From: Ideonella dechloratans
GTDB lineage: Bacteria; Pseudomonadota; Gammaproteobacteria; Burkholderiales; Burkholderiaceae_C
DNA: 64,000 nt
Assembly (NCBI RefSeq): GCF_021049305.1
Contig: NZ_CP088082.1
Span: forward strand, 186,001-250,000
Direction of reading: 5' to 3'
How positions within the stretch are numbered: the stretch's first letter is position 1; each line of letters opens with the position of its first letter. Position numbers and translations under genes: made by a program. This document shows positions 25,365-49,955 of this stretch, one piece after another. The notes under the pieces are model-generated. The model did no database searches. It was not told the origin of the DNA and saw only the letters and a list, made by a program, of their open reading frames with translations.

Positions 25365-25415
25365 TGTTGAATCACGAGCAAAACTGAGCCAGGCGTCACG
25401 TCCAAAACTGAGCCA

Positions 25416-26264
25416 CTAAGTTGACGAAGAAATGGACTGTTCGGATGTGGATAAGTCTACTGCGTGATCTGTCTGGGGTGCTCCTTTGGCCGTTTTGGTT
25501 CGTGTGGCTCTGATGATCGAAGACGGTTGTGCAGTCGAGTGCCTGAAGCGCCAGCTCTGGTTGCCGGTTTCGACGATGTGGCAGTGATGGGTGAGTCGGT
25601 CGAGTAGCGCGGTGGTCATCTTGGCGTCGCCGAACACGCTGGCCCACTCCGAGAACGACAGGTTGGTGGTGACGACCACGCTGGTGCGCTCGTACAGCTT
25701 GGACAGCAGGTGGAACAGCAAGGCCCCACCGGCTTGACTGAAGGGCAAATAGCCCATCTCGTCGAGGATGACGAGATCCACGTACATGAGCCGATGTGCC
25801 AGTTGCCCGGCCTTACCTTGAGCTTTCTCGGCCTCCAGCAGATTGACCAGCTCGACGGTCGAGAAGAAGCGCACCCGCTTACCATGTGCACGGATGGCAT
25901 GAACGCCCAGGCTTGTGGCAAGGTGTGTTTTGCCCGTGCCAGGGCCGCCCACGAAGACCACGTTGTGGGCTGAGTCGATGAACTTGAACTCGTGCAGCTG
26001 ACGCACCAGCGCCTCGTCCACCTGCGCCTGATCAAAGGCAAAGCCAGCCAGGTCGCGGTGGTGCGGGAATCGGGCCGCCCGCATCTGGTAGGCCATGGAG
26101 CGCACTTCCCGATGTGCACCCTCGGCCTTGATGAGCTGATGCAGCAGGGCTTCGTGGTCGAGCGATTTGAGCCGGGCGATGCCCAGCAGTTCCGGCCAGG
26201 CACTGGCCATGCCGTGCAGGCTCAAGCCCTTGAGGCTTGCTGCGATGTCATTGGACATGGTCAT
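25416..26264 (-). CDS. istB: IstB-like ATP-binding protein of the IS21-family element (left copy)
   Basis: 282 residues, AAA+ helper ATPase. Walker A is [11 protein letters not shown] and Walker B is [12 protein letters not shown], with sensor motif VVVTTNLSF. IstB proteins load and regulate the IstA transposase on DNA. The start overlaps the end of istA by 17 bp. The C-terminal tail after RHSTAQPSS is Ser/Thr-rich and longer than the family core. Confidence 0.93.
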
Positions 26265-27780
26265 CCTCCTGGGACTGGCGCAGGCTGTCGTAGCGCGACA
26301 CGTCGGCCTGAGGCGGCTCGTGCAGCGTCAGTGAAGGCAAGGCTGCTTCAGGCAGGCTTTGCACGGCTTGGGGCTCCTTGAGCCTGGCCAGCACGTTGAG
26401 CACATGGTCTGCGCTCACGCGGCCCGATTGCAGCGCCAACTCCACGGCCACCAGCACGTCATCGAGCCCGTGCAGGGTGATGGCCATGAGCACCTGGGCC
26501 ATCACCCGGTCGCCGCCAGGGTGGCGAAGCAGGTGCGCTTGCAGATGCTGCAAGGGCTCGGGCATGGTCTTGAAGGGGGCGCCGTTGCGCAAAGCGCCGG
26601 GCTTGCGTTCGAGCAAGCTGACGTAGTGCCGCCAGTCGTACAAGGTCTGGCCACGCTCGAAGCTGCGCGGCAGGCTCACCGGCTGTTCTGGCGATTCCGA
26701 GTTGGCACCGACCACCACCAGGCGATCGGGATAAGCCCGCACGCTGACACTGGTGTGGGCCCACTCGCATGGCACGCTGTAGCGATTGCGCTGGTAGTGG
26801 ATCAGCGAGGTGGCTGTGACCCTGGCCATCTGCTCGACATAGCCATCAAATGGCGCAGGGTTGGGCATCAGGTGCGTCTGCTCTTGCTGCCAGACGTCGG
26901 CGATCGTCAGCTCTGGCCACTCGGGGTGAGGCAGCTCATGCCAGGCGTCCAGGCAAGCCTGGTGCAGCCACGCATTGAGGCTCTCCAGGTCGGGCCAGCG
27001 GCGTTCCGCTGCCTCCATCCAGATGCCACGACGGCGATCCTGCACGTTCTTCTCGACGATACCCTTCTCCCAGCCAGCGGCGCGGTTGCAGAACTCTGGC
27101 TCGAACAGGTAGTGACCCGTCATGGCCTCGAAGCGCGCATTGACGGTGCGGCTCTTGCCCTGACCAACCTTGTCGACGGCGGTCTTCATGTTGTCGTAGA
27201 TGCCCCGGCGCGGCACGCCACCAAAAGCCGCAAAGGCTCGGGCATGGGCGTCGAACAACATCTCGTGGGCCTGGCTGAAATAGGCGGTGAGCATGAAGGC
27301 CCGACTGGCCGCCAGCTTGGTGTGCGAAGCCTCCAGGCGTTTGCGCAGGCCGCCCACGAACAGGTACTCGCAGCTCCAGTCGAACTGGAAGGCCTCGCCC
27401 ATCTCGAAACTCATGGGTACGAAGGCCATTCGGGTTGGCGCGTCGGACTGTGCCTGCTGCCAGCGCTTGGCGAACTCATAGACCGGGCCTCGGCTGCCAG
27501 GGTAGCCCACGGCCTGCAGTGCCCGGAACATGGCCTTGATGCCACGGCGCTCGCGCTTGTTGCGGTGGCTGTCGGCCTTTAGCCAGGTGGCCAGCTGTTC
27601 CTTGTAGGGATCGAGAACGCTGGGAAGAGAGGCCCGCTTGGGGTAGCGGGGCTCGACCATCTCGTCGGCCTCGAGCCACTTGGCGGCTGTATTGCGGGAG
27701 ATGCCCAGCCTTCGGCTGGCTTCGCGCACGCTCAGGTGGTCACGGTGGACCATGCGGCGCAATTTGCTCAATGTGCTCAC
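26248..27780 (-). CDS. istA: IstA-like transposase of the IS21-family element (left copy)
   Basis: About 510 residues: an N-terminal helix-turn-helix ([20 protein letters not shown]), a DDE integrase core ([14 protein letters not shown] with the first Asp, [13 protein letters not shown] with the second, [13 protein letters not shown] with the Glu), and a C-terminal beta-barrel region. I prefer the GTG giving [12 protein letters not shown], which has AGGAG eight bases upstream; reading on to 27843 adds codons within the terminal repeat region. It catalyses cut and strand transfer of the element. Confidence 0.93.
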
Positions 27781-27914
27781 GTTGATCACTCCTGCACCCC
27801 ACTGCTGCAAAAAACAGCAGGGTAGGTGGATAACGTGGCTCAAAATTGGGCGTGACGGATGCCCTTTAGTGGCTCAGTTTTGCTCGTGATTCAACATACG
27901 TGTAAAAATAGGAC

Positions 27915-28091
27915 TTAGCGGCTAATTAAGTCCTGCTGGTGCGGCTTTTCACTTTTCTTCTTCGCTGCCGTTGGCCGCTTTAATGCCTCTTCGAGTCTGG
28001 TTTCCGCTCCTATCGCTCTGCGCTCCAGTGATTCAATTTGATCTCCAACGGCGCCAAGTTTGCCACTTGCCGTGGCCACCTGCTGAATTAG
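27915..28091 (-). pseudogene. C-terminal coiled-coil remnant of an unidentified gene
   Basis: 58 codons reading LIQQVATASGKLGAVGDQIE, then a Lys/Gln-rich tail ending at TAA 27915. The heptad spacing predicts a coiled coil. The 5' part is missing because the second IS21-type element begins at 28092. It is on the same strand as the recombinase at 30562-31533. It may be the end of a third gene of a recombinase cluster or of an unrelated plasmid-type DNA-binding protein; I cannot decide which. Confidence 0.5.
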
Positions 28092-28228
28092 TGCGTATTC
28101 CAGACCAAACTGGACACCGATTCCACGGCAAACTGGACAGTGATTCCAGAGCAATCTGGACAGTAAAAATAGTAACGTAGCGCGCGGGATAACCGTGGCA
28201 CTCTCGGAGATTTTTCTTCGGAGACCAC

Positions 28229-29767
28229 ATGGCGAACAACAGGTTATCCATGCGCAAAATTACAGAAGCACTACGGCTGCATTTCGAGCACGACCGCACC
28301 AACCGTGAAATCGCCCTGGTCATCGGCACCTCGCCGACCACCGTCGGGGAATATCTGCGTCGAGCCCGTGTGGCTGGCATTGGTTATCCCTTGCCAGACG
28401 GGCTGGATGACGCCGCCATTGAGTCCCGCCTCTTCCCGCCGGCAGTATCGGCGGAGGTCATCCGCCTGGAGCCCGACTGGGCATGGGTGCACCGAGAGAT
28501 GCGCAAGAAGAGCGTCACGCTCGACTTGCTGTGGCAGGAATACAAGGCGGATCACCCGGATGGTTACCTATATAGTTGGTTCTGCGAACATTACCGACAG
28601 TGGGCCGGCAAGCTGTCGGTCAGCATGCGGCAGACGCACACCCCCGGCGAGAAACTGTTTGTCGACTATGTCGGCCAGACGCTGTCGATCATTGATGGCG
28701 CCACTGGTGAAATTCGCCAGGCACAACTGTTCGTCGCCGTCCTCGGCGCATCCAATTACACCTATGCCGAAGCGACCTGGACGCAGAAACTGCCGGACTG
28801 GATTGGCTCCCATGTCCGCACCTTCGAGTTCCTTGGCGGCGTCACTGCGATCCTTGTCCCAGACAACCTCAAGTCAGGCGTCAAACATGCCTCCTACTAC
28901 GATCCGGAACTCAATCCGACCTATCAGGACTTCGCCCGGCATTACGGCGTAGCAGTGCTGCCGGCACGTCCATACAAGCCCAAGGACAAAGCCAAGGTCG
29001 AAGGCGGCGTGCTGATTGTGGAACGCTGGATACTGGCGCGGCTGCGCAATCAACGCTTCTTCAGTTTGGCGGAAGCCAACCGCGCCATCGCCCAATTGTT
29101 GGAGTCGCTGAATCAGCGGCCGTTCAAGAAACTGCCTGGCTGCCGCCACAGCGCCTTCCTTGAGATGGATCTCCCTGCGCTCAATCCCCTCCCGCAATGC
29201 CGCTATGAATACGCCGAATGGAAGAAGGTGCGCGTTGGCGTTGATTACCACGTTGAAGGTGATGAGCATTACTACTCGGTGCCTTACCGCCTTTCCCGCC
29301 TGCAATTGGAGCTGCGCATGACCGTCACCACGGTGGAGGTGTTTCATCGAGGCCAGCGCATTGCCGCACACGTGCGCAGCCCGATCAAAAATCACCACAC
29401 CACGCTGGATGCGCACATGCCCCCGGAACACCAAGCCGTTGCCGGCTGGAATGGCCCGCGGTTGCTCGACTGGGCACAGAAGATTGGTAGCTCCACTGAA
29501 TCCGCGGTGCGAGTCATGCTGGGCGCGCGCAAGCATCCACAACAAAGCTATCGCGCCTGCCTCGGCGTACTGCGTCTGGCCAAGGGCTTTGGCAATGATC
29601 GTTTAAATGCTGCGTGTGCTCGTGCTCTGAAACTGAACGCGGCGGGCTACCGCAGCATTCATTCAATACTCAAGAACGGCCTGGACCGGCAACAGCCGGC
29701 GATAGCCATTCAGGCATACCTGCCACTGGATCACGCCAATGTGCGTGGCCCGAACTATTACCATTAA
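28229..29767 (+). CDS. istA: IstA-like transposase of the second IS21-family element
   Basis: 512 residues. The N-terminal HTH is MRKITEALRLHFEHDRTNRE followed by TSPTTVGEYLRRA. The DDE core carries LFVDYVGQTLSIID, AILVPDNLKSGVKHA and KDKAKVEGGVLIVERWI for the Asp, Asp and Glu. The C-terminal part carries VDYHVEGDEHYYSVPYRL, which is typical of long IstA proteins. It is followed by istB after 19 bp with a good AGGAG site. Confidence 0.93.
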   Translation: MANNRLSMRKITEALRLHFEHDRTNREIALVIGTSPTTVGEYLRRARVAGIGYPLPDGLDDAAIESRLFPPAVSAEVIRLEPDWAWVHREMRKKSVTLDLLWQEYKADHPDGYLYSWFCEHYRQWAGKLSVSMRQTHTPGEKLFVDYVGQTLSIIDGATGEIRQAQLFVAVLGASNYTYAEATWTQKLPDWIGSHVRTFEFLGGVTAILVPDNLKSGVKHASYYDPELNPTYQDFARHYGVAVLPARPYKPKDKAKVEGGVLIVERWILARLRNQRFFSLAEANRAIAQLLESLNQRPFKKLPGCRHSAFLEMDLPALNPLPQCRYEYAEWKKVRVGVDYHVEGDEHYYSVPYRLSRLQLELRMTVTTVEVFHRGQRIAAHVRSPIKNHHTTLDAHMPPEHQAVAGWNGPRLLDWAQKIGSSTESAVRVMLGARKHPQQSYRACLGVLRLAKGFGNDRLNAACARALKLNAAGYRSIHSILKNGLDRQQPAIAIQAYLPLDHANVRGPNYYH

Positions 29768-29786
29768 CACCACAGGAGAACCACCC

Positions 29787-30542
29787 ATGCTCAATCATCC
29801 AACACACGACCAACTCCAGCAATTACGCCTGTTCGGAATGGCACGCGCCCTCGCCGAACAGCAGGCCATTCCCGACATTACGCATCTGGCATTCGAGGAA
29901 CGCCTCGGCCTCTTGGTTGAGCGCGAAGTCACTGAGCGTGATTCCCGACTAACTTCCAGCCGGCTACGGCGTGCAAAGCTCAAACAGGCAGCCGTTGCCG
30001 AGGACGTGGACTACCGCGCAGCACGAAGCCTGGACCGCACCTTATTCAACCGGCTATTGACCGGCTCGTGGGTAGCAGAACACCAGAATGTGCTGATCAC
30101 AGGCCCCACGGGCGTCGGCAAGACTTGGCTGGCCTGCGCTCTGGCCAACCAAGCGTGCCGTCAGGGCAAATCGGTGCTTTACCTGCGGGTGCCGCGATTG
30201 TTCGAGGATGTGGCGATTGCTCATGGGGACGGGCGTTACGGCAAGCTGATGATGCAACTCGCCAAGACCGATGTGCTGCTATTGGACGACTGGGGATTGG
30301 CGTTACTGACCGACTCCGCGCGACGTGACTTGCTGGAAATCTTTGACGACCGGCACGGCCACCGTTCAACCATCGTAACCAGTCAATTGCCGGTGGCGAA
30401 CTGGCATGAATCCATCGGCGACCCCACCTTGGCTGACGCCATTCTGGATCGCCTGGTTCACAACGCTCATCAATTAATTCTGACCGGAGAATCCATGAGA
30501 AAACACAAAAATAGTTTGACCCAAAAACAAGTTTCAGAGTAA
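29787..30542 (+). CDS. istB: IstB-like ATP-binding protein of the second IS21-family element
   Basis: 251 residues; Walker A GPTGVGKTWLACAL, Walker B DVLLLDDWGL, sensor TSQLPVANWH. The start ATG at 29787 has CAGGAGAA upstream. An AAA+ helper of transposition, complete in length and motifs. Confidence 0.93.
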   Translation: MLNHPTHDQLQQLRLFGMARALAEQQAIPDITHLAFEERLGLLVEREVTERDSRLTSSRLRRAKLKQAAVAEDVDYRAARSLDRTLFNRLLTGSWVAEHQNVLITGPTGVGKTWLACALANQACRQGKSVLYLRVPRLFEDVAIAHGDGRYGKLMMQLAKTDVLLLDDWGLALLTDSARRDLLEIFDDRHGHRSTIVTSQLPVANWHESIGDPTLADAILDRLVHNAHQLILTGESMRKHKNSLTQKQVSE

Positions 30543-30561
30543 AACTATAACCCCCGCGTCG

Positions 30562-31533
30562 CTACGCTCCGACTGTCCAGTTTGCCGTGGACTGGCTGTC
30601 CAGTTTGCGTGGAATACGCAGCGTGTCGAGCTTGGCGTAGATCAGGGTGGTGTTCAACGACCGGTGACGCAGCAGGTCGGCGACTTCCTTGAGCGAACTG
30701 CCGTTCTCAACAAGGCGACACGCCAGAGTATGCCGAAGTGCATGTGCGCTGGAATGTGGTAGACCAACACGGCAGCAGGCGTGCTTGATCACCTTCTGTA
30801 TCGCCATGGAGGTGATGGGGCAGTCTCGCCCTTCCTTCTGTCGGACGAAGATGGCAGGGTTACGGGTGGCAGGTCGCTCATGTTGCAGATAATCGGCCAG
30901 TGCCTGCCCGGTTTTCATCGGCAATGGCATGATGTCCTGCCGTAGCGATTTCGTCCCTCGCAGCATTACCGTGCCAGCACGCCAGTCAATGTCGCTGATC
31001 ATGAGATGAGCGATTTCGCCGGCTCTCAATCCCATGTCCAATGCGCAACGCACAATGGCATAATCACGTTTTGGTAAGCGCAGGTTGGCAGTGAAGTAGT
31101 TCAGCAGGCGCTCGACCTCGTCGGGCTTGAGCGCGCGCGGTATGGTCGCCAGCCTCCAGTTGACGGGCGAAGAGATTACTGCGGTCAGTGCATCGACCCG
31201 ATCACCACAGGTGGTACGGTAGCGGAAATAGCTCCGCAGTGATGATGCCAAGTGGGATGCATTGGAGGTTGTTCGGTGCGCATCCAACTGACTGGCGAGG
31301 AAGCGGCGCACATCCTCGGGGCGTAGCTTGGCAATTTCGACTGGGCACTCAGCAAATTTCTGTTGTAGCAACCAGCCCACGATACGAAGGTTGTTTTGGC
31401 GCGATCTTGCCGCCAGCCCTCGTACATTGCACAGGTGTTCGTCGTAGCGCAGCAGTTCCTCGGCAACGTGGTTCGTGAATGACGCAGATGGCCGTGCGCT
31501 TGGCCCGTCCCGGTGTGTAGTGGTGGTATTCAT
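30562..31533 (-). CDS. Tyrosine recombinase with IS-derived C-terminus
   Basis: 323 residues of the phage-integrase/XerC-like superfamily: an N-terminal SAM-like domain and a catalytic domain with Arg in DMGLRAGEIAHL, HALRHTLACRL (HxxR), the His in LLRHRSLNTTLIYAKLD and the nucleophile Tyr in the same motif. All catalytic residues are intact. The last dozen or so codons (PRKLDSQSTANW...) read through the end of the IS21-type element at 30620, so the natural C-terminus has been replaced. The enzyme may still be active. It is probably the recombinase of an older mobile unit. Confidence 0.88.
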   Translation of the reverse strand: MNTTTTHRDGPSARPSASFTNHVAEELLRYDEHLCNVRGLAARSRQNNLRIVGWLLQQKFAECPVEIAKLRPEDVRRFLASQLDAHRTTSNASHLASSLRSYFRYRTTCGDRVDALTAVISSPVNWRLATIPRALKPDEVERLLNYFTANLRLPKRDYAIVRCALDMGLRAGEIAHLMISDIDWRAGTVMLRGTKSLRQDIMPLPMKTGQALADYLQHERPATRNPAIFVRQKEGRDCPITSMAIQKVIKHACCRVGLPHSSAHALRHTLACRLVENGSSLKEVADLLRHRSLNTTLIYAKLDTLRIPRKLDSQSTANWTVGA

Positions 31534-31903
31534 AACGGTCTCCTGAAGTGGAACAACCACTTCAGACCACCGCAGAAATTATGTCGACCTTTTTGTTACA
31601 TCAACCGATGGGAAAGCCCTTGTAGCAATGCTTTGGCAACATGGCACTCAGGCTACTCCACATAATCGAGTGGTCAGCATAACGACCCAAATCGGCCACT
31701 CAACCTTGTAAATTCGCCGCCTGAAAGCCGCCGGTCACCAAGTGCTTAACCATCACAAAAGCGGTATCTGGCCCAGAATCAAGCAGCATGGCACGAAGCC
31801 ACCGGGCAAAGTAATAGGCTGGGATGCAATCCCAACTATCCTCACTCAAAGAATGCTGGGATATTATCCCAGCCTGCCGAGCTTTTTGCGCGATAGGGGG
31901 TAT
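31534..31903. other. Non-coding stretch between recombinase and cupin gene with two dyads
   Basis: About 370 bp with no convincing gene; a plus-strand frame here is antisense to the cupin gene. It contains TGGGAT-GCA-ATCCCA at 31820-31834 and GCTGGGATA-T-TATCCCAGC at 31855-31873. The second dyad follows the cupin stop codon on the minus strand and could act as a terminator or a recombination/regulatory site. A GAGTGG...CCACTC dyad lies near 31669-31703. Confidence 0.5.
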
Positions 31904-32275
31904 CTATTTTTCAGCCAATGCAAATCCTGCATTGCCAGAAGCAACCACCGAGACAAATATGAATGGCACGGAACCAATGTTAAGAGCACCATGCACCTGC
32001 CCAGGTTTTGCTATGGCGATGTCTCCCGCCACAAGATGCGTGGTCATGCCACTCCCAAGATAATAGTCAGCCGCACCAGAGATGACGGTCCAAGTATCTT
32101 GACCATGTGGATGGACATGAGCGGCTATTTCTTGCCCAGGATGGGCATGCCATACAACAATCGCTGAGTCCTCGGTTTCCAGAACCACTGATCGAATCGG
32201 TTCGCTATCAGAGGGGCGAACATAGTCCGCCACTGAAAATATTCTTCCTTCTGCTTTCATACGCATCTCCAACAC
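31904..32275 (-). CDS. Cupin-domain protein
   Basis: About 120 residues; single cupin barrel with motif 1 HAHPGQEIAAHVHPHGQDTW and motif 2 AGDIAIAKPGQVHGAL, giving several His residues for a metal ion. Three in-frame ATGs lie at the start; MKAEGRIFSV, with its own purine-rich leader, is the most likely. It is the last gene of the minus-strand set cld, Met-rich peptide, msrB fragment, cupin. A role in chlorine-oxyanion stress is only guessed from position. Confidence 0.8.
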   Translation of the reverse strand: MLEMRMKAEGRIFSVADYVRPSDSEPIRSVVLETEDSAIVVWHAHPGQEIAAHVHPHGQDTWTVISGAADYYLGSGMTTHLVAGDIAIAKPGQVHGALNIGSVPFIFVSVVASGNAGFALAEK

Positions 32276-32371
32276 CAGTTAGCCATTACAAATATGGCAC
32301 AATCTCAAGAGCGCGAAAGGTCGAGTTCTAACCTACGTCTTCTTAGGCCTGATAACAGGATATCAATTTCT

Positions 32372-32617
32372 TCATTTGGCATTGTCTGGCACGAACTTGA
32401 GCACATTGCCGTTGATGCAGTAACGTTTGTGGGTAGGCGGAGGTCCGTCGTCAAAAACATGTCCCAAATGGATGCCGGAACTGGCGCTCCTCACCTCGAC
32501 TCTCCGCATGCCGTGCGAGTCATCGACATGCTCGGTGATCGCCCCCTTGACCGGATTGAAGAAACTTGGCCAGCCAGTGCCGCTATCGAACTTTGTGTCG
32601 CTTCGAAACAACGGACG
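32372..32617 (-). pseudogene. msrB: Methionine-R-sulfoxide reductase MsrB, C-terminal fragment
   Basis: About 80 codons with the MsrB core: [38 protein letters not shown] and the catalytic Cys in [11 protein letters not shown]. The N-terminal third, including the first zinc CxxC pair of zinc-type MsrB, is missing. The fragment begins directly behind the stop codon of the Met-rich peptide gene, with no ATG and only a TTG at 32611. It is either a deletion remnant or a short translated form. MsrB would reduce methionine-R-sulfoxide, which fits its neighbour. Confidence 0.75.
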
Positions 32618-32619
32618 GC

Positions 32620-32907
32620 TTATTTCTTCATTTCACCCTTGCCCATCATGGCACCCTTTTCCATGCCTTCCTTAGCCATGGCATCCTTGGGCATGGCGCC
32701 CTTCTTCATCCCATCTTTTTTCATCATGCCGTCCTTAGCCATTGCGTCCTTGCCCATGGTAGGTTTTTTCATGTCATCCTTGGTCATGGCCTCTTTCGCC
32801 ATGCTTTCCTTGGCCATAGTGTCTTTTTTCATGCCATCTTGCGCCAAAGCCCCGTCAGCAATTGACAGAAAACCAATAGAGAGAAGAATTGCGGCGATCT
32901 TGTTCAT
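32620..32907 (-). CDS. Methionine-rich periplasmic peptide (MrpX-like)
   Basis: 95 residues: a Sec signal peptide ([22 protein letters not shown]) and a mature part of about 72 residues with 16 methionines, most spaced every five residues in units such as [25 protein letters not shown]. The rest is almost all Lys, Asp, Glu, Ala and Gly. Such peptides in perchlorate reducers are reported to scavenge hypochlorite by sacrificial Met oxidation. The position between cld and an msrB fragment supports that role here. It is AT-richer than the chromosome. Confidence 0.82.
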
Positions 32908-33003
32908 GCTTAACTCCTTTGCGAATGTTTGAAGAACCGTATCAGGCTGGGCCGATACTCAGCGTGTCCAGTTTGGCTATTGAAGCCATTTACGCCTCGA
33001 TTC

Positions 33004-33033
33004 GTTCGGCCACCATGTTCCTGGTGGCCGAAC
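33004..33033 (-). terminator. Hairpin between cld and the Met-rich peptide gene
   Basis: A perfect 12-bp stem (GTTCGGCCACCA / TGGTGGCCGAAC) with a 6-base loop lies 11 bp beyond the cld stop codon. There is no T-run, so it could be a partial terminator or a 3' stabilising hairpin that sets different levels for cld and the downstream genes. Confidence 0.6.
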
Positions 33034-33043
33034 ATTCAAGCCA

Positions 33044-33991
<948 letters not shown>

Positions 33992-33999
33992 TTATGTGT

Positions 34000-34013
34000 T
34001 TGATTTAAGTCAA
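34000..34013. promoter_or_regulatory. FNR/Anr-type box upstream of cld
   Basis: TTGATTTAAGTCAA matches the FNR consensus TTGAT-N4-ATCAA at nine of ten fixed positions. It lies about 100 bp upstream of the cld start codon, between that gene and the ISL3-type element, so it would now act only on cld. Anaerobic activation of cld by an FNR/Crp-family regulator is expected. Confidence 0.65.
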
Positions 34014-34044
34014 GAGTTTCTCCGAAACTTAACACTATATTTTT

Positions 34045-35492: not shown

Positions 35493-35677
35493 ATATTTTT
35501 TCTCCTTTTGAACGACAAAACCATGTTTTTGAAATAGGCATGGTGAGAGGGGAGTTGCAAGCATCGTGCCCAGCTTCCCGATATTTTGGAAACAAGAGTC
35601 GCATGGCTCCTGTCTATTTCACTGTCAAAAGCAGCCGACATGTTTGCAACCTGGAGTCCATCAAATGAGGAATCGTC

Positions 35678-38422
35678 ATGAATAGTCCCGATGAGCACAA
35701 CGGCCGCCGCCGGTTTCTACAGTTCTCTGCGGCCGCGCTTGCCAGTGCGGCCGCATCCCCCAGTCTGTGGGCCTTTTCAAAGATCCAGCCCATCGAGGAT
35801 CCGCTGAAAGACTACCCCTACCGCGACTGGGAAGACCTTTACCGAAAGGAGTGGACCTGGGATTCAGTTGGCGTCATGACGCACTCCAATGGCTGCGTCG
35901 CTGGTTGTGCCTGGAATGTGTTCGTGAAGAACGGTATCCCGATGCGCGAGGAGCAAATCAGCAAGTACCCGCAACTGCCCGGCATTCCGGACATGAATCC
36001 GCGCGGTTGCCAAAAGGGGGCGGTGTACTGTTCCTGGTCAAAGCAGCCGGACCATATCAAGTGGCCGCTCAAGCGCGTCGGCGAACGCGGTGAGCGCAAA
36101 TGGAAGCGCATCTCCTGGGACGAAGCGCTCACCGAAATCGCGGACAAGATCATCGACACGACGGTGAAGCGCGGTCCCGGCAACATCTATATTCCCAAGC
36201 GCCCTTTCGCAGTCATCACCAACACGGCATACACGCGGATGACAAAGCTGCTAGGGGCCATCAGTCCGGATGCTACCTCCATGACTGGCGATCTCTATAC
36301 CGGCATCCAGACGGTGCGCGTGCCGGCCTCAACCGTGTCCACTTTCGACGACTGGTTCACCTCCGACCTCATCCTGATGTGGCACAAGAATCCCATCGTC
36401 ACGCGGATTCCGGACGCCCACTTCCTCATGGAAGCGCGTTACAACGGCGCGCGGCTGGTGAATATCTCGGCGGACTATAACCCGTCCTCGATCCACTCCG
36501 ACCTGTTCGTTCCGGTGACCTCGGGTACCGACTCCCATCTTGCCGCAGCGCTAGTCAATGTGCTTATCGCCGGTAAACACTACAAGGCCGACTACCTCAA
36601 GGAGCAAACCGACCTGCCCTTCCTGGTACGCACCGACAACGGTAAATTCCTACGCGAGAAGGACTTCAAGGCGGACGGCAGCGACCAGGTCTTCTATGTC
36701 TGGGACACCAAGGCGGGCAAGGCGGTGCTTGCACCCGGCAGCATGGGCAGCAAGGACAAGACCTTGAAGCTCGGCACCATCGATCCGGCGCTGGAGGGAA
36801 ACTTTGAAACTCATGGGATCAAGGTCACGACGGTCTTCGAGCGTCTGAAGGCAGAAATCACCCCGTACACGCCCGAGGCTACCCAGGCCACCACCGGTGT
36901 GCATCCTTCCGTTGTACGCCAATTGGCAGGATGGATAGCCGAATGCAAGGCCTTGCGCATTCTCGACGGCTACAACAACCAGAAGCACTTCGACGGATTC
37001 CAGTGCGGTCGCCTGAAGATATTGATTCTGACCCTGATCGGCCACCATGGCACGACCGGCTCCATCGACACCACCTTCGAGGGCTGGCGGCTGGAAGGCA
37101 ACTCTGAACTGGGCACGGTGAAGGGCAAACCCGGACGTAGCGTCTCCGCAGTGCTGGCCCAGTGGGTGTGGGGCGAACAGTACCAACGCTCGAAAGACTA
37201 CTTTAATGATGCGCAGCTACGCGAGGAGCTGGGCTTCGGCGTCGACGAGATGGAGTCAATGCGCAAGGAATCCGAGGCCAACGGCTGGATGCCCAATTGG
37301 CAGTCCATCAAGGAGCCGGTGGTCAGCATCACAGGCGGCATCAACATGTTCGCCACCTCCAACGGCTACCAGCATCTTCGAGACAACTTCCTCAAGCGCT
37401 GCGAGCTGAACGTCGTGGTGGATTTCCGTCTCAACTCCGGGGCGATGTATGCCGATATCGTGCTGCCGGCGGCGGAAAATACCGAGAAGCTGGACATTCG
37501 CGAGACCTCGGTGACCCGTTTCATCCATGCCTTCGGCCAACCGGTCAAGCCCATGTACGAGCGCAAGACCGACTGGCAGATCATGGTGGCGCTCGCAGCC
37601 AAGATCCAGGAGCGTGCCAAGGCGCGCGGCATCGCTCGCGTAGATGATCCCGAGATCAAGAGCGGCATCGACTTCGACAAGATCTACGACGAGTTCACCA
37701 TGAACGGCAAGGTTGTCACCGACGAGCAGGCGGTGCGCTTCGTCATGGACAACTCCAAGGCCCTCGGTCCGGGCACCTATGAAGAAGTGATGAAAAACGG
37801 CTTCGTCGCGGTCGGTCCCTCGGCTGGCAAGACCGGGCCGGTGCCGAAGGACAAACCGTACCGCCCCTTCACAGTGAACGTGACCGACAAGAAGCCGTAC
37901 GGCACGCTTACCGGACGCCTGCAGTTTTATGTGGACCACGACTGGTTTCAGCGCCTTGGGGCCACCGTGCCCAAGCCCCAGTACCGAGGGGGCGTTCTGG
38001 GGCCGAAAAAGTACCCCTTTGTGCGCAACTCGCCCCATGCCCGTTGGGGTGTCCACTCCTTCGCGCGTACCGAGCAATGGATGCTGCGCCACCAACGCGG
38101 CGAGCCGGATGTGCGTATGAGCCCCAAGGCCATGGCAGCCAAGGGGATTAAGGATGGCGATATGGTCCGCATTTTCAATGACTCGGGTGAGTTCTTTGCC
38201 GTGGTCAAGGCCATGCCCGCATTGCCCGACAACATGCTGTTCACTGAGCATGGGTGGGAACAGTACCAGTACAAGAACATGACCCACTACAACATGGTCA
38301 GCTCGGAGCTGATCAACCCACTGGAGTTGGTGGGCGGCTACGGCCACATCAAGTACACGTCGGGGGGATTCAATCCTAACCGCATTTTCTACGAAACGAC
38401 GGTTGACGTCGAGAAGGCCTGA
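35678..38422 (+). CDS. clrA: Chlorate reductase alpha (molybdopterin) subunit ClrA
   Basis: 914 residues, the size of type II DMSO-reductase-family catalytic subunits. It starts with a Tat signal ([17 protein letters not shown]). The Fe-S motif HSNGCVAGC...GCQKG uses His as the first ligand, as in this subfamily. Mo-bis-MGD-binding segments follow, including [16 protein letters not shown], and the C-terminal dinucleotide-binding domain has [11 protein letters not shown]. It reduces chlorate to chlorite in the periplasm as part of ClrABC. clrB follows after 10 bp. Selenate and dimethylsulfide dehydrogenases are close relatives; the cld neighbour fixes the substrate. Confidence 0.96.
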
Positions 38423-38432
38423 GGAACAAATC

Positions 38433-39419
38433 ATGAGTCAAAGACAAGTAGCCTACGTATTCGATCTGAACAAGTGCATCGGCTGTCACACCTGCACCAT
38501 GGCGTGCAAACAATTGTGGACCAACCGGGACGGTCGCGAGTACATGTACTGGAACAACGTGGAGACCCGCCCCGGCAAGGGCTATCCCAAAAACTGGGAG
38601 GGAAAAGGCGGCGGCTTCGACCAGGAAGGCAAGCTAAAAACCAACGGCATCATCCCCATCATGGCCGACTATGGCGGCAGGATCGGTGACTTCAACCTGA
38701 ACGAGGTCCTGCTGGAGGGCAAAGCCGACCAGGTGGTGCCCCATGAGAAAGCCACCTGGGGCCCGAACTGGGACGAAGACGAGGGCAAGGGCGAATTCCC
38801 GAACAACCACTCCTTTTACCTGCCTCGCATCTGCAACCATTGCTCCAACCCGGCTTGCCTGGCCGCCTGCCCCACCAAAGCGATCTACAAACGCCCCGAA
38901 GACGGCATTGTGGTGGTTGACCAGACGCGCTGCCGTGGCTACCGTTACTGCGTCAAGGCCTGCCCGTACGGCAAGATGTATTTCAATTTGCAGAAAGGCA
39001 AGTCAGAGAAATGCATCGGCTGCTATCCGCGCGTCGAAAAGGGCGAGGCGCCCGCCTGCGTCAAGCAATGCTCGGGTCGCATTCGCTTCTGGGGCTATCG
39101 AGACGACAAAAACGGTCCGATCTACAAGCTGGTCGAGCAATGGAAAGTGGCGCTGCCGCTGCATGCCGAATACGGCACCGAGCCCAACGTCTTTTACGTG
39201 CCGCCCATGAACACCACGCCGCCGCCATTCGAGGAGGACGGCCGCCTCGGCGACAAGCCACGCATCCCGATCGAGGATCTCGAAGCGCTGTTTGGCCCCG
39301 GCGTCAAGCAGGCTCTGGCAACGCTTGGGGGTGAGATGGCCAAGCGGCGCAAGGCGCAGGCGTCGGAACTCACCGACATCCTCATCGGCTTCACCAACAA
39401 GGACAGGTACGGCGTATGA
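38433..39419 (+). CDS. clrB: Chlorate reductase beta (iron-sulfur) subunit ClrB
   Basis: 328 residues with four Cys clusters: CIGCHTCTMACKQ, CNHCSNPACLAACP, CRGYRYCVKACPYG and CIGCYPR...CVKQC. The Tyr in CRGY replaces one Cys, as expected for the [3Fe-4S] centre in this subfamily, so three [4Fe-4S] and one [3Fe-4S] centres are predicted. It passes electrons from heme b of ClrC to ClrA and has no signal peptide, consistent with piggy-back Tat export. The start ATG 38433 follows GAGGAACAAATC; the upstream in-frame start overlaps clrA and is rejected. Confidence 0.97.
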   Translation: MSQRQVAYVFDLNKCIGCHTCTMACKQLWTNRDGREYMYWNNVETRPGKGYPKNWEGKGGGFDQEGKLKTNGIIPIMADYGGRIGDFNLNEVLLEGKADQVVPHEKATWGPNWDEDEGKGEFPNNHSFYLPRICNHCSNPACLAACPTKAIYKRPEDGIVVVDQTRCRGYRYCVKACPYGKMYFNLQKGKSEKCIGCYPRVEKGEAPACVKQCSGRIRFWGYRDDKNGPIYKLVEQWKVALPLHAEYGTEPNVFYVPPMNTTPPPFEEDGRLGDKPRIPIEDLEALFGPGVKQALATLGGEMAKRRKAQASELTDILIGFTNKDRYGV

Positions 39420-39997
39420 ACACCCTCATCGACAACCCCAAAGCCATGGCCAGCGGCTATCTGGCGATGGCCCAGATGTTCTCTTATCCCGACGCCGACG
39501 CCTGGCGCCGCCTGACTGAAAATGGGCTGGTGGATCCGGCACTTGGCCGTGAAACGCTGGAGGCGGAGTACCTGGGCCTCTTCGAGATGGGGGGCGGCAC
39601 TTCCACAATGTCCCTTTACGAAGGGCAGAACCGGCCGGAACGCGGGCGCGATGGCATTCTGCAGGAGTTGTTGCGTTTCTACGAGTTCTTCGACGTGCAC
39701 CTCAATCAGGACGAGCGGGAGTACCCAGACCATCTGGTCACCGAACTGGAGTTCCTCGCATGGCTTTGTCTGCAGGAGCATGCCGCCCTGCGCGACGGGC
39801 GCGACGCAGAACCGTTTCAAAACGCTGCGCGAGACTTTCTGGTTCGGCACTTGGCGGCCTGGCTGCCGGATTTTCGCCAGCGGCTAGAAGCCACGGAGAC
39901 CACTTATGCGCAGTACGGACCAACGCTGGGCGAACTGGTGGAAACTCACCGCAGCCGCCTCGGCGATCAGCCACAAAAATCGAGAGAAATGCAATGA
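39416..39997 (+). CDS. clrD: Chlorate reductase assembly chaperone ClrD (NarJ/DmsD-like)
   Basis: 193 residues, all-helical TorD/NarJ-type protein ([51 protein letters not shown]). It overlaps clrB by 4 bp and clrC by 4 bp. It should bind the ClrA Tat signal or apo-protein in the cytoplasm until the molybdenum cofactor is inserted, and is not part of the final enzyme. Confidence 0.93.
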
Positions 39998-40713
39998 AAA
40001 CAAACATTCTAGTGAAGCGAATGGCAGTGATCGGTCTCGCCGTCGCGGCAGCGTGCACGGGTGCTGCTGCAGCAGCGCAAGGCGCCGTGCCGCAAGCGCA
40101 GCGCATCATCCGCGTGCTGTCGGTAGCGGGGGGTGACGCCGCGTCTCCCCAGGCGGCCGTCTGGAAAAAGGCGCCGACGACGCAGGTCACGCTGCTAACG
40201 GCCTTCCCCGGCCACATCTCAATCGTGGGCACGGCCGCAACTCAGAAGCTCGCTGCCCAAGCTGTGCGCGCTTCAGGGCGGCTATTCGTCAAGCTTGCCT
40301 GGAGCGACCGCACCGCCAACACAGTGATGAAGGATACCGATCAGTTCCTGGACGGCGCCGCAGTAGAGTTCCCCGTCAACGGTAAGGTCGCCACGCTGCC
40401 CTTCATGGGCGATCCTGTCAACGTCGTCAATGTGTGGCATTGGCGCGCCGACGGGCGCACTTTGAACCTGCTGGCCAAAGGTTTCGGCACTTCAACGCCG
40501 GTGCCGACCGAGGATCTGCGCAGTGCGTCGGTGCGCACCGGCGATGGTTGGGAGGTAGTCCTCAGCCGTCCGCTGCGGGTCAAGGCAGAAGAGGGCGCGA
40601 ACCTACAGGGCCGACGGACCATGCCGATAGGCTTTGCCGCCTGGGATGGTGAGAACCAGGAACGTGACGGGCTTAAAGCCGTGACCATGGAGTGGTGGCA
40701 GCTTCGCTTTTGA
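39994..40713 (+). CDS. clrC: Chlorate reductase gamma (heme b) subunit ClrC
   Basis: 239 residues: Sec signal peptide ([20 protein letters not shown]...), then a beta-rich domain like SerC/DdhC/EbdC that binds one heme b with Met and Lys axial ligands. Recognisable blocks are [30 protein letters not shown] and [11 protein letters not shown]. It accepts electrons from periplasmic cytochromes and passes them to ClrB. Gene order clrA-B-D-C is as in other members of this enzyme family. The start ATGA overlaps the clrD stop. Confidence 0.95.
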
Positions 40714-40839
40714 GGACGTAACGACGGTGGCAACCGCTTGGCATGTATTGTGACCCGCATACCTGAAAGGGATACTGACCATAACCTTTCACCAAGCAGC
40801 GCAACTGTTGCGCTGCTTCATTTCAACTCGGAATAGCTT

Positions 40840-41157
40840 ATGAAAAAAATTCTCGTACTGGCCGCATTCGCCACCCTCTCAGTCTCATCTTTCGCGATCG
40901 ACAAAGGCGTCGCGATGGCTATGGCCCAGAAAAGTGGCTGCCTCGCATGCCATGCACTGGACAAGAAGCTGGTCGGCCCGGCCTGGAATGAAGTCGGGAA
41001 AAAATATGCGGGAAATGCCGCTGCGGCGGCCCAATTGGCAGTGAAGATCAAAAAAGGCTCCAATGGCATCTGGGGCCCAATCCCGATGCCGCCAAACGCC
41101 ACGGTCAAAGACGCCGACATCAAAACAATGGTCGAGTTTGTTTTAACCCTCAAGTAA
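40840..41157 (+). CDS. cyc: Small periplasmic c-type cytochrome
   Basis: 105 residues: signal peptide (MKKILVLAAFATLSVSSFA) and a class I cytochrome c of about 86 residues, heme motif CLACH and distal Met in PIPMPPNATV, similar to c551/c552 proteins. It follows clrC after 126 bp and likely has its own promoter. By context it could donate electrons to chlorate reductase or link it to the respiratory chain; this is inferred from position. Confidence 0.93.
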   Translation: MKKILVLAAFATLSVSSFAIDKGVAMAMAQKSGCLACHALDKKLVGPAWNEVGKKYAGNAAAAAQLAVKIKKGSNGIWGPIPMPPNATVKDADIKTMVEFVLTLK

Positions 41158-41226
41158 ACCTGATCGGACATCCGGTCTCTTAGGCACCACTGACTCCAAT
41201 GAGCAAGTGGTGTTGCGGCACATTTT

Positions 41227-41766
41227 ATGAAAATCTTTGGAATCGCCGGCCACTCTGGCATGGGTAAGACCACGTTACTGGAGCGATTGGTGCCTGCCAT
41301 CAGCGCGCGCGGAATGGTCATATCCTTGCTTAAACACAGCCACAAAAATATTGACGTAGATCGGCCTGGTAAAGACTCATATCGTCTGCGTGAGTCCGGC
41401 TGCAAAGAAGTGCTTTTACTGGGCAACGACCGCTGGGCGTTGATGCATGAACTGCGTGGAACGCCCGAGCCTTCATTGGATTATTTGCTTGGCCGAATGC
41501 AGCATTGCGACCTAGTGTTGATTGAAGGCTTTAAGAGCGGCACCTTTCCTAAACTTGAGGTCTGGCGGGCATCGCTTGAAAAGCCCCCGCTGGCATCGGT
41601 TTGGCCGGGCATCGTGGCAATTGCCAGTGATACGCGGTTTGTTGCGTCAGAGCAATTATTGGCGGTACCGAACTTGGTCAAACTGGATTTGGCCGACACG
41701 GCGTCCATCGCGGAATTCATACTCTTGCATGCCATCAACCCCGAACTGAGCGACCTGTCCATCTGA
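41227..41766 (+). CDS. mobB: MobB, molybdopterin-guanine dinucleotide synthesis adaptor
   Basis: 179 residues, P-loop GTPase fold. Walker A is GHSGMGKTTLLERL, followed by LLKHSHKNIDVDRPGKDSYR and LVLIEGFKSGTFPKLEV, all standard MobB motifs. It assists MobA in attaching GMP to molybdopterin to make the bis-MGD cofactor used by ClrA. Its presence inside the mobile element suggests the element brings some cofactor capacity along. No mobA is present here. Confidence 0.95.
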   Translation: MKIFGIAGHSGMGKTTLLERLVPAISARGMVISLLKHSHKNIDVDRPGKDSYRLRESGCKEVLLLGNDRWALMHELRGTPEPSLDYLLGRMQHCDLVLIEGFKSGTFPKLEVWRASLEKPPLASVWPGIVAIASDTRFVASEQLLAVPNLVKLDLADTASIAEFILLHAINPELSDLSI

Positions 41767-42213
41767 TGCTTTAAAACAACGTTGATTCAGGTCCACGCCT
41801 AAAAACAACAGCGCCTCGCCATGGAAGCTGATGAGCATGCTACACACCTGAGGCAGCACCTTGCGCCAGCGTTATCGCCCACTCCGCAACTCCCTCACGC
41901 AATTGCAAGACTGCGTAGCCCTATGCTTGCAGCAGTCGCACACTCAAGCGCAAATTCAATGAATGGCCAGAGAATCGCGTTTGAATTTGATGGGTGGTGG
42001 ATTTCGTCTGGTGGCCAGGTTTGGGTATTCGGGGTTACTTCTCCATTCGCCAAACCAAAATTTCCAGTGCGGTCCTTCAGCCCAAGGAATCAGGCATTGC
42101 CAGTAGCCGACTCTTGAGCCACCTAACCCGACCGAAGCCAGTGACGGCTGTTTCGCAGTCCAGTTGAGTAATTTGGGATTTCATTCAGCCGTCGGTCGTC
42201 TGAATGCCCAGCC
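41767..42213. other. Stretch without a confident gene
   Basis: About 450 bp between mobB and the ArsR-type gene. One plus-strand frame (41821-42117, 98 codons, beginning MEADEHATHLRQHLAP) is open but shows no recognisable family, and another frame within it reads RQRYRPLRNSLTQLQDC before stopping. This looks like decayed coding DNA, possibly a broken mobile-element or cofactor gene. No promoter is obvious. Confidence 0.4.
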
Positions 42214-42241: not shown

Positions 42242-42261
42242 ATGAGTCAGGATATATATGT

Positions 42262-42648
42262 GTGTTCATTAATATGAATTCCGGTGAGCTTGACCATACG
42301 CGGGTCATCCCGGCACTCAAGGTGCTCGGGGAAGTCAACCGCCTGCGCATCCTATGCGAACTGGGACCTGAATGTCGTCCGGTGACGGACGTCATCAATG
42401 CGACGAGCCTGGGACAAACCAATGTCTCATTCCATCTGCGCGTGCTGCGCGAGGCGGGATTCGTTCGCGCCGAACGTCGCGGATCGTTCATCTACTATTG
42501 TCTTGCCGACCCCGAGTTGCTGCGTATCCTGCACGACCTCAGGCAATGGTTGGACACCCGTCAAGTGCCTGTATCGGGCCAGGCCAACCCGCCCAATCCG
42601 CCAAGCGAACCTCGCTTGGTCGGGGCAAAAACTAAGAAGGCATCTTAA
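42262..42648 (+). CDS. ArsR/SmtB-family transcriptional regulator
   Basis: About 125-128 residues. The winged helix-turn-helix is visible in LKVLGEVNRLRILCELG, TDVINATSLGQTNVSFHL and AGFVRAERRGSFIYYCLAD. Cys residues at ELGPEC and in the wing (YYC) might sense metals or oxidants, but the classical ELCVCDL metal box is absent. Start is GTG 42262 or ATG 42274. A SHOCT membrane protein follows after 2 bp. A role in controlling the chlorate genes or itself is possible. Confidence 0.88.
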   Translation: MFINMNSGELDHTRVIPALKVLGEVNRLRILCELGPECRPVTDVINATSLGQTNVSFHLRVLREAGFVRAERRGSFIYYCLADPELLRILHDLRQWLDTRQVPVSGQANPPNPPSEPRLVGAKTKKAS

Positions 42649-42650
42649 TT

Positions 42651-42884
42651 ATGTGGTCACATGGCCCTTGGGAATGGTTCCCGTTGATGTGGATATTCCC
42701 CCTGATTTTTCTTGTCGTGATTCTTCTCATTGTCTTTCGTGGCGGAGGCTCACCTATGAGCGGCGGACGCGGGATGCGGACCCATGACCGGGAGGAAAGT
42801 GCAAAAGAAATTCTCGACCGGCGTTATGCACGTGGCGAAATCGGGCAGGAGGAATATCAGCGAATGAAGAAAGACCTCGAATGA
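42651..42884 (+). CDS. Small membrane protein with SHOCT domain
   Basis: 77 residues: one membrane helix (FPLMWIFPLIFLVVILLIVF) and a C-terminal SHOCT motif (AKEILDRRYARGEIGQEEYQ). SHOCT segments are short oligomerisation motifs at the ends of unrelated proteins. It starts 2 bp after the ArsR-type gene, so the two are co-transcribed and probably act together. The function is unknown. Confidence 0.82.
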   Translation: MWSHGPWEWFPLMWIFPLIFLVVILLIVFRGGGSPMSGGRGMRTHDREESAKEILDRRYARGEIGQEEYQRMKKDLE

Positions 42885-43009
42885 CGATTCAAGCTCAATA
42901 GTTTCCGGTCGCTGCCATGCCTGACCGGGACTGGTGGCATGTCTGTGGCCCGCTCCAGATGCTGCCTCCTTGTTCAATAGCGCAGTTAAATTGTTTTTCA
43001 CATTTGAAT

Positions 43010-43167
43010 CACCGGGCAAACAACCTATGCCAGGCAATGGCCAGACTTTTCGCAGCATCGTGGACCTCGTCGGATGTCGTCATGCGCCCAACAGACAGTC
43101 GAACTGCACCTATGGCACGCGTGGCATCCACGCCCATCGCCGCCAGCACCCCGCTGACCGCATCATG
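43010..43167 (-). pseudogene. Cysteine desulfurase, 3' fragment cut by IS
   Basis: The last 52 codons of an IscS/NifS-type gene. GVLAAMGVDATRAIGAVRLS, VGR and MTTSDEVHDAAKSLAIAW match the C-terminal S-x-GR-x-TT-x2-EV-x2-AA block of class V aminotransferase-fold desulfurases. The frame is open up to the IS end at 43168, where the rest of the gene has been lost. It shows that the composite element captured a neighbouring gene end from a previous host. Confidence 0.85.
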
Positions 43168-43218
43168 TGTTGAATCACGAGCAAAACTGAGCCAGGCGTC
43201 ACGTCCAAAACTGAGCCA

Positions 43219-44067
43219 CTAAGTTGACGAAGAAATGGACTGTTCGGATGTGGATAAGTCTACTGCGTGATCTGTCTGGGGTGCTCCTTTGGCCGTTTTG
43301 GTTCGTGTGGCTCTGATGATCGAAGACGGTTGTGCAGTCGAGTGCCTGAAGCGCCAGCTCTGGTTGCCGGTTTCGACGATGTGGCAGTGATGGGTGAGTC
43401 GGTCGAGTAGCGCGGTGGTCATCTTGGCGTCGCCGAACACGCTGGCCCACTCCGAGAACGACAGGTTGGTGGTGACGACCACGCTGGTGCGCTCGTACAG
43501 CTTGGACAGCAGGTGGAACAGCAAGGCCCCACCGGCTTGACTGAAGGGCAAATAGCCCATCTCGTCGAGGATGACGAGATCCACGTACATGAGCCGATGT
43601 GCCAGTTGCCCGGCCTTACCTTGAGCTTTCTCGGCCTCCAGCAGATTGACCAGCTCGACGGTCGAGAAGAAGCGCACCCGCTTACCATGTGCACGGATGG
43701 CATGAACGCCCAGGCTTGTGGCAAGGTGTGTTTTGCCCGTGCCAGGGCCGCCCACGAAGACCACGTTGTGGGCTGAGTCGATGAACTTGAACTCGTGCAG
43801 CTGACGCACCAGCGCCTCGTCCACCTGCGCCTGATCAAAGGCAAAGCCAGCCAGGTCGCGGTGGTGCGGGAATCGGGCCGCCCGCATCTGGTAGGCCATG
43901 GAGCGCACTTCCCGATGTGCACCCTCGGCCTTGATGAGCTGATGCAGCAGGGCTTCGTGGTCGAGCGATTTGAGCCGGGCGATGCCCAGCAGTTCCGGCC
44001 AGGCACTGGCCATGCCGTGCAGGCTCAAGCCCTTGAGGCTTGCTGCGATGTCATTGGACATGGTCAT
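43219..44067 (-). CDS. istB: IstB-like ATP-binding protein (right copy)
   Basis: 282 residues, identical in sequence to the protein of the left copy (Walker [12 protein letters not shown], Walker [13 protein letters not shown]). Overlaps istA by 17 bp. Confidence 0.93.
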
Positions 44068-45583
44068 CCTCCTGGGACTGGCGCAGGCTGTCGTAGCGCG
44101 ACACGTCGGCCTGAGGCGGCTCGTGCAGCGTCAGTGAAGGCAAGGCTGCTTCAGGCAGGCTTTGCACGGCTTGGGGCTCCTTGAGCCTGGCCAGCACGTT
44201 GAGCACATGGTCTGCGCTCACGCGGCCCGATTGCAGCGCCAACTCCACGGCCACCAGCACGTCATCGAGCCCGTGCAGGGTGATGGCCATGAGCACCTGG
44301 GCCATCACCCGGTCGCCGCCAGGGTGGCGAAGCAGGTGCGCTTGCAGATGCTGCAAGGGCTCGGGCATGGTCTTGAAGGGGGCGCCGTTGCGCAAAGCGC
44401 CGGGCTTGCGTTCGAGCAAGCTGACGTAGTGCCGCCAGTCGTACAAGGTCTGGCCACGCTCGAAGCTGCGCGGCAGGCTCACCGGCTGTTCTGGCGATTC
44501 CGAGTTGGCACCGACCACCACCAGGCGATCGGGATAAGCCCGCACGCTGACACTGGTGTGGGCCCACTCGCATGGCACGCTGTAGCGATTGCGCTGGTAG
44601 TGGATCAGCGAGGTGGCTGTGACCCTGGCCATCTGCTCGACATAGCCATCAAATGGCGCAGGGTTGGGCATCAGGTGCGTCTGCTCTTGCTGCCAGACGT
44701 CGGCGATCGTCAGCTCTGGCCACTCGGGGTGAGGCAGCTCATGCCAGGCGTCCAGGCAAGCCTGGTGCAGCCACGCATTGAGGCTCTCCAGGTCGGGCCA
44801 GCGGCGTTCCGCTGCCTCCATCCAGATGCCACGACGGCGATCCTGCACGTTCTTCTCGACGATACCCTTCTCCCAGCCAGCGGCGCGGTTGCAGAACTCT
44901 GGCTCGAACAGGTAGTGACCCGTCATGGCCTCGAAGCGCGCATTGACGGTGCGGCTCTTGCCCTGACCAACCTTGTCGACGGCGGTCTTCATGTTGTCGT
45001 AGATGCCCCGGCGCGGCACGCCACCAAAAGCCGCAAAGGCTCGGGCATGGGCGTCGAACAACATCTCGTGGGCCTGGCTGAAATAGGCGGTGAGCATGAA
45101 GGCCCGACTGGCCGCCAGCTTGGTGTGCGAAGCCTCCAGGCGTTTGCGCAGGCCGCCCACGAACAGGTACTCGCAGCTCCAGTCGAACTGGAAGGCCTCG
45201 CCCATCTCGAAACTCATGGGTACGAAGGCCATTCGGGTTGGCGCGTCGGACTGTGCCTGCTGCCAGCGCTTGGCGAACTCATAGACCGGGCCTCGGCTGC
45301 CAGGGTAGCCCACGGCCTGCAGTGCCCGGAACATGGCCTTGATGCCACGGCGCTCGCGCTTGTTGCGGTGGCTGTCGGCCTTTAGCCAGGTGGCCAGCTG
45401 TTCCTTGTAGGGATCGAGAACGCTGGGAAGAGAGGCCCGCTTGGGGTAGCGGGGCTCGACCATCTCGTCGGCCTCGAGCCACTTGGCGGCTGTATTGCGG
45501 GAGATGCCCAGCCTTCGGCTGGCTTCGCGCACGCTCAGGTGGTCACGGTGGACCATGCGGCGCAATTTGCTCAATGTGCTCAC
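44051..45583 (-). CDS. istA: IstA-like transposase (right copy)
   Basis: About 510 residues, identical to the left-copy transposase: [23 protein letters not shown] and DDE residues in [20 protein letters not shown] and [10 protein letters not shown]. The GTG start with AGGAG upstream is chosen for the same reason. Confidence 0.93.
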
Positions 45584-45699
45584 GTTGATCACTCCTGCAC
45601 CCCACTGCTGCAAAAAACAGCAGGGTAGGTGGATAACGTGGCTCAAAATTGGGCGTGACGGATGCCCTTTAGTGGCTCAGTTTTGCTCGTGATTCAACA

Positions 45700-49264: not shown

Positions 49265-49266
49265 GA

Positions 49267-49324: not shown

Positions 49325-49338
49325 GTTGGAGAGCCCCC

Positions 49339-49881: not shown

Positions 49882-49955
49882 AGGACCTGGGCGGCCATGC
49901 ACCGGCACATGGCCCCCGCTGCTCTGCGCGCCATGGTCTGAGGGCGCCCCGCTGC

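Follow-up and report, generated by a model that had tools for sequence, protein, structure and literature searches.

The genes for chlorate respiration in Ideonella dechloratans lie within an element that occupies positions 25365-45699 of the 64,000-bp stretch analysed here ("the window", bases 186001-250000 of the 708,898-base contig C2). The element is framed by two copies of an IS21-type insertion sequence (IS), ISAav1, at 25365-27896 and 43168-45699, each 2532 bp long, oriented in the same direction and devoid of mismatches. We consider it probable that the present structure results from transposition by ISAav1 ends into an ssuE-like gene, from an IS-adjacent deletion on the right side and from the insertion of another element, ISIde1, which split the cld and clr genes. 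Since a chlorate composite transposon of I. dechloratans has already been published, the finding is known in substance: passages of PMC7349173 describe one carrying the clr operon, cld, cyc, mobB and arsR, and credit it to Clark et al. 2013 (doi 10.1128/mBio.00379-13). As far as those passages specify it, that cargo is the same as the one described below. The system is a known one and the new detail is found at its edges; the present analysis refines this case and opens no new one.

Flanking insertion sequences and the left border

An earlier note on this DNA had claimed that two identical IS21-type copies in direct orientation frame the chlorate genes, and the claim proved exact to the base. 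Both copies lie on the minus strand and have the terminal inverted repeats TGTTGAATCACGAGCAAAACTGAGCC. In the left copy istB spans 25416-26264 and istA 26248-27843; the frames are open and match the IS21 models NF033546 (istA, E 3.7e-92) and IstB_IS21 (istB, E 2.7e-83). The name ISAav1 was taken from copies at 99.9% identity in three plasmid records; judged by their titles, none of the three papers found on ISAav1 deals with chlorate. A search of the organism's own genome (4,544,016 bases in 2 contigs), in which the best 40 of 106 candidates were scored, yielded these two as the only full copies, together with one relative at 68% identity. Apart from I. dechloratans itself, the 16 genomes searched in the genus yielded no close full-length ISAav1; in the 15 congeners the best stretches were of 1.9 kb at 69%, 257 bases at 83% and 48 bases at 92% identity. 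A cargo enclosed by a pair of complete copies of the same IS gives the unit the makeup of an IS composite transposon. The unit lacks the pcrABCD genes that characterize perchlorate reduction islands, the molybdopterin reductase seen in it being ClrA (pcr was not sought elsewhere in the genome). The presence of clrABDC and cld between insertion sequences corresponds to the chlorate-reduction composite transposon of CRI type, as defined in passages of PMC7349173 and in other print.

The DNA enclosed by the IS copies has a G+C content of 57.4%, as against 70.7% to the left of the unit and 71.3% from position 48390 onwards. The left IS interrupts, after codon 75, a plus-strand gene for an NADPH-dependent FMN reductase resembling ssuE, of which the 5′ 75 codons are left at 25140-25364 (FMN_red, E 6.6e-13). 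The 1665 bases preceding the composite match three congeners, G008, G005 and G013, at 95%, 93% and 85% identity, respectively, up to base 25364; among the matches listed, full-length ones were found in at least 3 of 59 relatives and in at least 3 of the 15 congeners. On the other side, the block held in common with plasmid pALIDE01 of Alicycliphilus denitrificans BC begins at 27897, straight after the IS. The left border is thus exact, and by these alignments the left IS sits precisely between host and foreign DNA. In G005, G008 and G013 the reading frame runs on past the boundary to the end of the FMN reductase and is followed by further genes, in what looks like an organosulfonate locus (the ssu gene names are those that we take to apply). 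For the remainder of ssuE and the DNA downstream from it (3877 bp from G013, 8508 bp from G008), no orthologue was found in the I. dechloratans genome among the best 40 candidates. The best 40 candidates scored in these searches, as in the search with G008 DNA described below, include only scattered matches of at most 572 bases and 65-88% identity for the ssuE queries; most of these fall within a stretch of about 600 bases, probably a gene for an ABC-transporter ATPase.

The right border and the insertion history

The right IS is followed by a prophage-tail remnant (45700-48289), identified through phrog matches and encoded on the plus strand. It comprises the 3′ portion of a gene that the IS truncates (45702-45812), genes for a virion structural protein (45812-46186; phrog_3758, E 2.1e-8) and a tail protein (46183-48075; phrog_6079, E 7.1e-134), and a small gene of unknown family (48068-48289). 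Distant relatives of these genes occur in Acidovorax and Curvibacter phages. In relatives of I. dechloratans they find no match at this place, the tail gene being matched at 68% in G006 at five other places. The tail-protein gene also contains two tandem 90-bp repeats, 84% alike, at 46614-46793. DNA largely colinear with the congeners (48390-64000) resumes inside the 3′ end of a minus-strand EamA transporter gene (48335-49264). When the 6478 bp lying to the left of EamA in G008 were searched for in the I. dechloratans genome, one match of 912 bases at 70% was obtained; all others were of 294 bases or less.

The earlier note had read the unit as a composite transposon able to move as a whole. 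Much of this reading stands, as identical direct IS copies frame DNA of low G+C content, the left border is exact and none of the 15 congeners has cld. The flanks, however, do not join as one empty site. A clean empty site was rejected: in G005, G008 and G013 the DNA of the left flank runs on into ssuE, and the right flank is the prophage-tail remnant. Moreover, no target duplication of 3-8 bp was found around the whole unit or around either IS. Mismatched flanks and a missing target duplication together indicate that the present copy is not the product of a clean one-step insertion. Since the one other ISAav1 locus seen, in three related plasmid records, shows no clear duplication either, the lack of a duplication here is a weak argument when taken alone; its likeliest explanation is an IS-adjacent deletion. 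Like its left counterpart, the right IS probably lies on a border between host and foreign DNA, and transposition by the outer ISAav1 ends most simply accounts for the presence of ISs at these borders.

The sequence of events was probably as follows. By its action on the outermost ends, the transposase of ISAav1 would have carried the foreign block into the ssuE-like gene of contig C2. Later or simultaneously, a deletion adjacent to the right ISAav1 would have removed the rest of the probable sulfonate locus and joined the IS to the prophage-tail remnant. At some time ISIde1 split the divergent cld and clr genes, as shown by its 8-bp duplication and by the uninterrupted site in BC. The insertion site of I. 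dechloratans was probably reshaped at the expense of the sulfonate locus. That chlorate respiration was gained at the cost of a locus for organosulfonate scavenging, through ISAav1 entry and one-sided deletion, is put forward more tentatively, as one possible outcome of this history. If true, one-sided deletion could explain other composite transposons to which no empty site can be matched.

A number of observations weigh against this account. The outer flanks derive from different genes and do not show insertion as one unit; the unit lacks a target duplication, which is uninformative if one flank was later deleted. The right border is less firmly placed than its left counterpart, and no comparison with a congener defines it. 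The G+C content near the right IS is 62% in the 156 bases just inside it, 53% in the preceding 1.1 kb and 69-70% in the prophage-tail genes, and the value of the 156 inner bases renders the border not sharp by composition. The ssuE and EamA regions of G013 stand in the opposite order, with about 43 kb between them, which implies that other rearrangements also happened here. The absence of ISAav1 from the congeners is weak evidence because several assemblies are drafts: many of them are in this state, with up to 1220 contigs, and an IS may be missed there. Finally, as the pALIDE01 alignment indicates, the core has also travelled, or was re-bounded, in a form without ISAav1 copies and so does not owe every move to this IS. 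As a side observation, comparison of positions 501845-545122 of G013 contig C14 with contig C2 places the alcohol dehydrogenase-to-ssuE segment (22.2-25.4 kb of the window) beyond EamA, about 40 kb off. In the draft assembly of G008 the ssuE and EamA regions are on separate contigs.

Two other histories were considered, both unlikely and neither preferable to the other. According to the first, two ISAav1 elements inserted independently at the edges of an island that arrived otherwise, by plasmid or prophage integration or through the XerC-like recombinase, the composite look being accidental. This would agree with the lack of a target duplication for the unit and with the existence of the pALIDE01 core without ISAav1, and the locus contains both a prophage remnant and a tyrosine recombinase. 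However, the left IS would have had to hit the junction between host and foreign DNA exactly, leaving no foreign base outside and no host base inside; furthermore, the copies are identical and the best 40 of the 106 candidates contain no further full copy. According to the second, a translocatable unit made of one ISAav1 and the cargo recombined into, or transposed beside, a single resident ISAav1. Direct and identical copies are what such an event would leave behind; yet the resident IS should show an outer target duplication of its own, and none was seen (although a subsequent deletion on one side would conceal this sign), nor did the 15 congeners yield a close full-length ISAav1. An assembly artefact, with the repeat misplaced and its flanks wrongly joined, is very improbable: identical 2.5-kb repeats are classic misjoin points, but the assembly consists of just 2 contigs and has a completeness of 100, and the chlorate composite transposon of I. 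dechloratans was reported independently, according to passages of PMC7349173.

The core shared with pALIDE01 and the host-specific edges

The earlier note had proposed that alignment with chlorate-reducer genomes would define a shared core. Alignment to pALIDE01 (NC_014908) covers 27897-34043 and 35494-41915, that is 12,569 bases with 16 differences (99.87% identity), and thereby delimits the DNA in common with BC to 27897-41915 minus ISIde1. The comparison separates a 12.6-kb core of two hosts from host-specific edges. The plasmid, typed as conjugative, shares with Ideonella the element ISIde2, the recombinase, the cupin gene, the msrB fragment and the MXKDX peptide as well as cld, clrABDC, cyc and mobB. 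It lacks ISAav1 at the edges of the core and it lacks ISIde1. The note had counted the same gene order without these ISs on the chromosome of related strains as a point that would tell against the composite transposon; the core does occur so arranged in BC, but on a plasmid. Passages of PMC7349173 mention a nearly identical chlorate composite transposon in A. denitrificans. More generally, chlorate respiration is an entire respiratory pathway whose movement on IS composites has been reported.

The two hosts differ on either side of the core. To the right of 41915, pALIDE01 has an HPP-family gene and others, whereas Ideonella has arsR, the SHOCT gene and a cysteine-desulfurase-like end. To the left, some 15 bases of plasmid DNA precede a segment of roughly 1 kb with matches to the IS1071 of other plasmids; going by the length that we take IS1071 to have, this is presumably a truncated copy. 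In a search run without a positive control, the pALIDE01 DNA on the left side of the core had no match in the I. dechloratans genome. ISAav1 directly adjoins the core edge at 27897, and the IS1071 fragment lies about 15 bp off in BC (L084:15989-16003). The presence of two different ISs near one point may be due to a hot spot or to chance. A common natural terminus at which both blocks, in BC and in Ideonella, would begin was considered and dropped, as BC has the 15 or so extra bases before the IS1071 fragment.

The differences between the two cores are not evenly placed. Five of the 16 are clustered within 80 bp of clrA (36264-36343), a degree of clustering that a random spread gave 1 time in 20,000 trials, and four of these five change amino acids (codons 196, 199, 203 and 208). 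Over the four genes that were checked against pALIDE01, 13 of 14 coding differences alter the residue. Derived states are found on both sides, in Ideonella and in BC. Local gene conversion, selection or sequence error may each be at the origin of the clrA cluster.

ClrABC reduces chlorate to chlorite, which Cld converts into chloride and O2. The genes named in the earlier note could for the most part be recognized: cld, clrABDC, the cytochrome c gene and mobB by Pfam, the Met-rich peptide by a penta_MxKDx match, the msrB fragment by a SelR match and the ArsR-SHOCT pair by a match to each domain. Reading the core from its left end at 27897, the first feature is ISIde2 (IS21; plus strand, about 28106-30608, ends approximate), with terminal inverted repeats, istA (28229-29767) and istB (29739-30542), its name coming from the pALIDE01 annotation. 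It is one of two more complete-looking ISs inside the unit, the other being ISIde1. Next, on the minus strand, is a gene for a XerC/D-like tyrosine recombinase (30562-31560). It had been taken for a remnant; its 332-codon frame is open and likewise intact in BC, so that nothing here marks it as such. Then follow, on the same strand, a cupin-domain gene (31904-32275) also present in BC, the C-terminal fragment of msrB (32375-32545; SelR, E 2.6e-18), identical in sequence and likewise a fragment in BC, the mrpX-like gene for a Met-rich MXKDX peptide of 95 residues (32620-32907; TIGR02953, E 1.7e-22) and cld, encoding chlorite dismutase (33044-33901; PF06778, E 2.2e-27; 99% identical to BC Cld).

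ISIde1 (ISL3 family; 34045-35492, plus strand) separates cld from clrA and is absent from BC. It is a clean insertion: both flanks carry the 8-bp target duplication ATATTTTT, and BC has this 8-mer once, at the uninterrupted site. Passages of PMC3692508 record ISIde1 in I. dechloratans and refer to a figure of nucleotide differences between two gene clusters. Beyond it, all on the plus strand, are clrA for the chlorate reductase alpha subunit (35678-38422; TIGR03479; 99% identical to BC ClrA), clrB (38433-39419; TIGR03478, with a query begun one codon earlier than this start, which follows the BC annotation), clrD for the assembly chaperone (39416-39997; PF02613), clrC for the heme b subunit (39994-40713; TIGR03477), cyc for a c-type cytochrome (40840-41157; Pfam) and mobB (41227-41766; PF03205), shortly before the right end of the common block at 41915.

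Outside the core, and not in pALIDE01, lie an arsR-family regulator gene (42262-42648, plus strand) and a gene for a small membrane protein with a SHOCT domain (42651-42881, plus strand). They are followed by a minus-strand segment cut by the right IS (43012-43167), which the earlier note had called a cysteine-desulfurase end; the translated peptide reads so, though the 52-residue piece has no Pfam match. Within the order, 21 of 399 genomes match this arsR-SHOCT-cysteine desulfurase part, its own genome included, and the best match from another genome is 75% over query bases 377-1046 of 1252. In the plasmid collection only 116 bases of the query find a match, namely those still in common with BC. 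Stretches of the arsR-SHOCT segment (42262-42881) recur at 66-75% in a few genomes of the order (twice in G080, and in G069), so the two may be an older gene pair.

Regulation, published systems and relatives

According to passages of PMC7349173, the published I. dechloratans cld promoter fragment reaches 230 bp upstream of cld and includes an FNR box, TTGACTTAAATCAA, whose centre lies 105.5 bp upstream of the gene. Both features could be located in the window. The site of the published forward primer is at 34115-34131, exactly 230 bp from the cld start at 33901, and the FNR box, with the published sequence, is at 34000-34013 on the minus strand, at exactly the published distance. Of the fnr primers published for I. 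dechloratans, the one tried has a single site in the genome. Together, these sites and their spacing assign the DNA to I. dechloratans with near certainty. An fnr-type gene was not found on the chlorate composite, as a passage of PMC7349173 states, and anaerobic induction therefore depends on the host.

Perchlorate islands, as described in passages of PMC4623255 (Melnyk and Coates 2015), have a Met-rich peptide beside cld, some together with msrA/msrB, and this peptide is tied there to hypochlorite defence. By analogy, the MXKDX peptide next to cld in Ideonella resembles the Met-rich peptide of these islands. The perchlorate islands carry pcrABCD, whereas the Ideonella unit carries clr and has msrB only as a fragment. 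They are also mostly found at other kinds of sites, the one of D. agitata CKB being reported as IS-flanked in the same passages.

In the 16 genomes of the genus, its own included, a close match to Cld was found in I. dechloratans alone and in none of the 15 congeners. Two distant Cld-family frames, 33% and 31% identical, are present elsewhere in the I. dechloratans genome (C2:655845-656207 and C1:87582-87944); at the threshold that detected them, the 15 congeners gave no Cld match at all. Lineage 1 and lineage 2 Cld co-occur only in chlorate reducers, according to passages of PMC9751292.

Relatives of ClrA were sought in one genome per species for 84,980 species. The scan, which may omit records of the own genome and misses chlorate reducers with a more distant ClrA, returned 104 relatives, of which 80 were kept, corresponding to 76 loci. 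The flanks of 38 of these loci (L001-L038) were examined: none contains Cld, and the B, D and C subunits are encoded alongside ClrA in 32 of the 38. Loci L001-L033 resemble the Ideonella operon, with ClrA up to 93% identical and B, D and C alongside in 32 of 33; the substrate of these enzymes may be selenate or another compound. In the subset L001-L023, none of which has Cld in its flanks, ClrA is 71-93% identical over the best segment and ClrB, ClrD and ClrC are found alongside in 22 of 23; by their titles, these records come from groups that include Rokubacteria as well as Alpha-, Beta- and Gammaproteobacteria.

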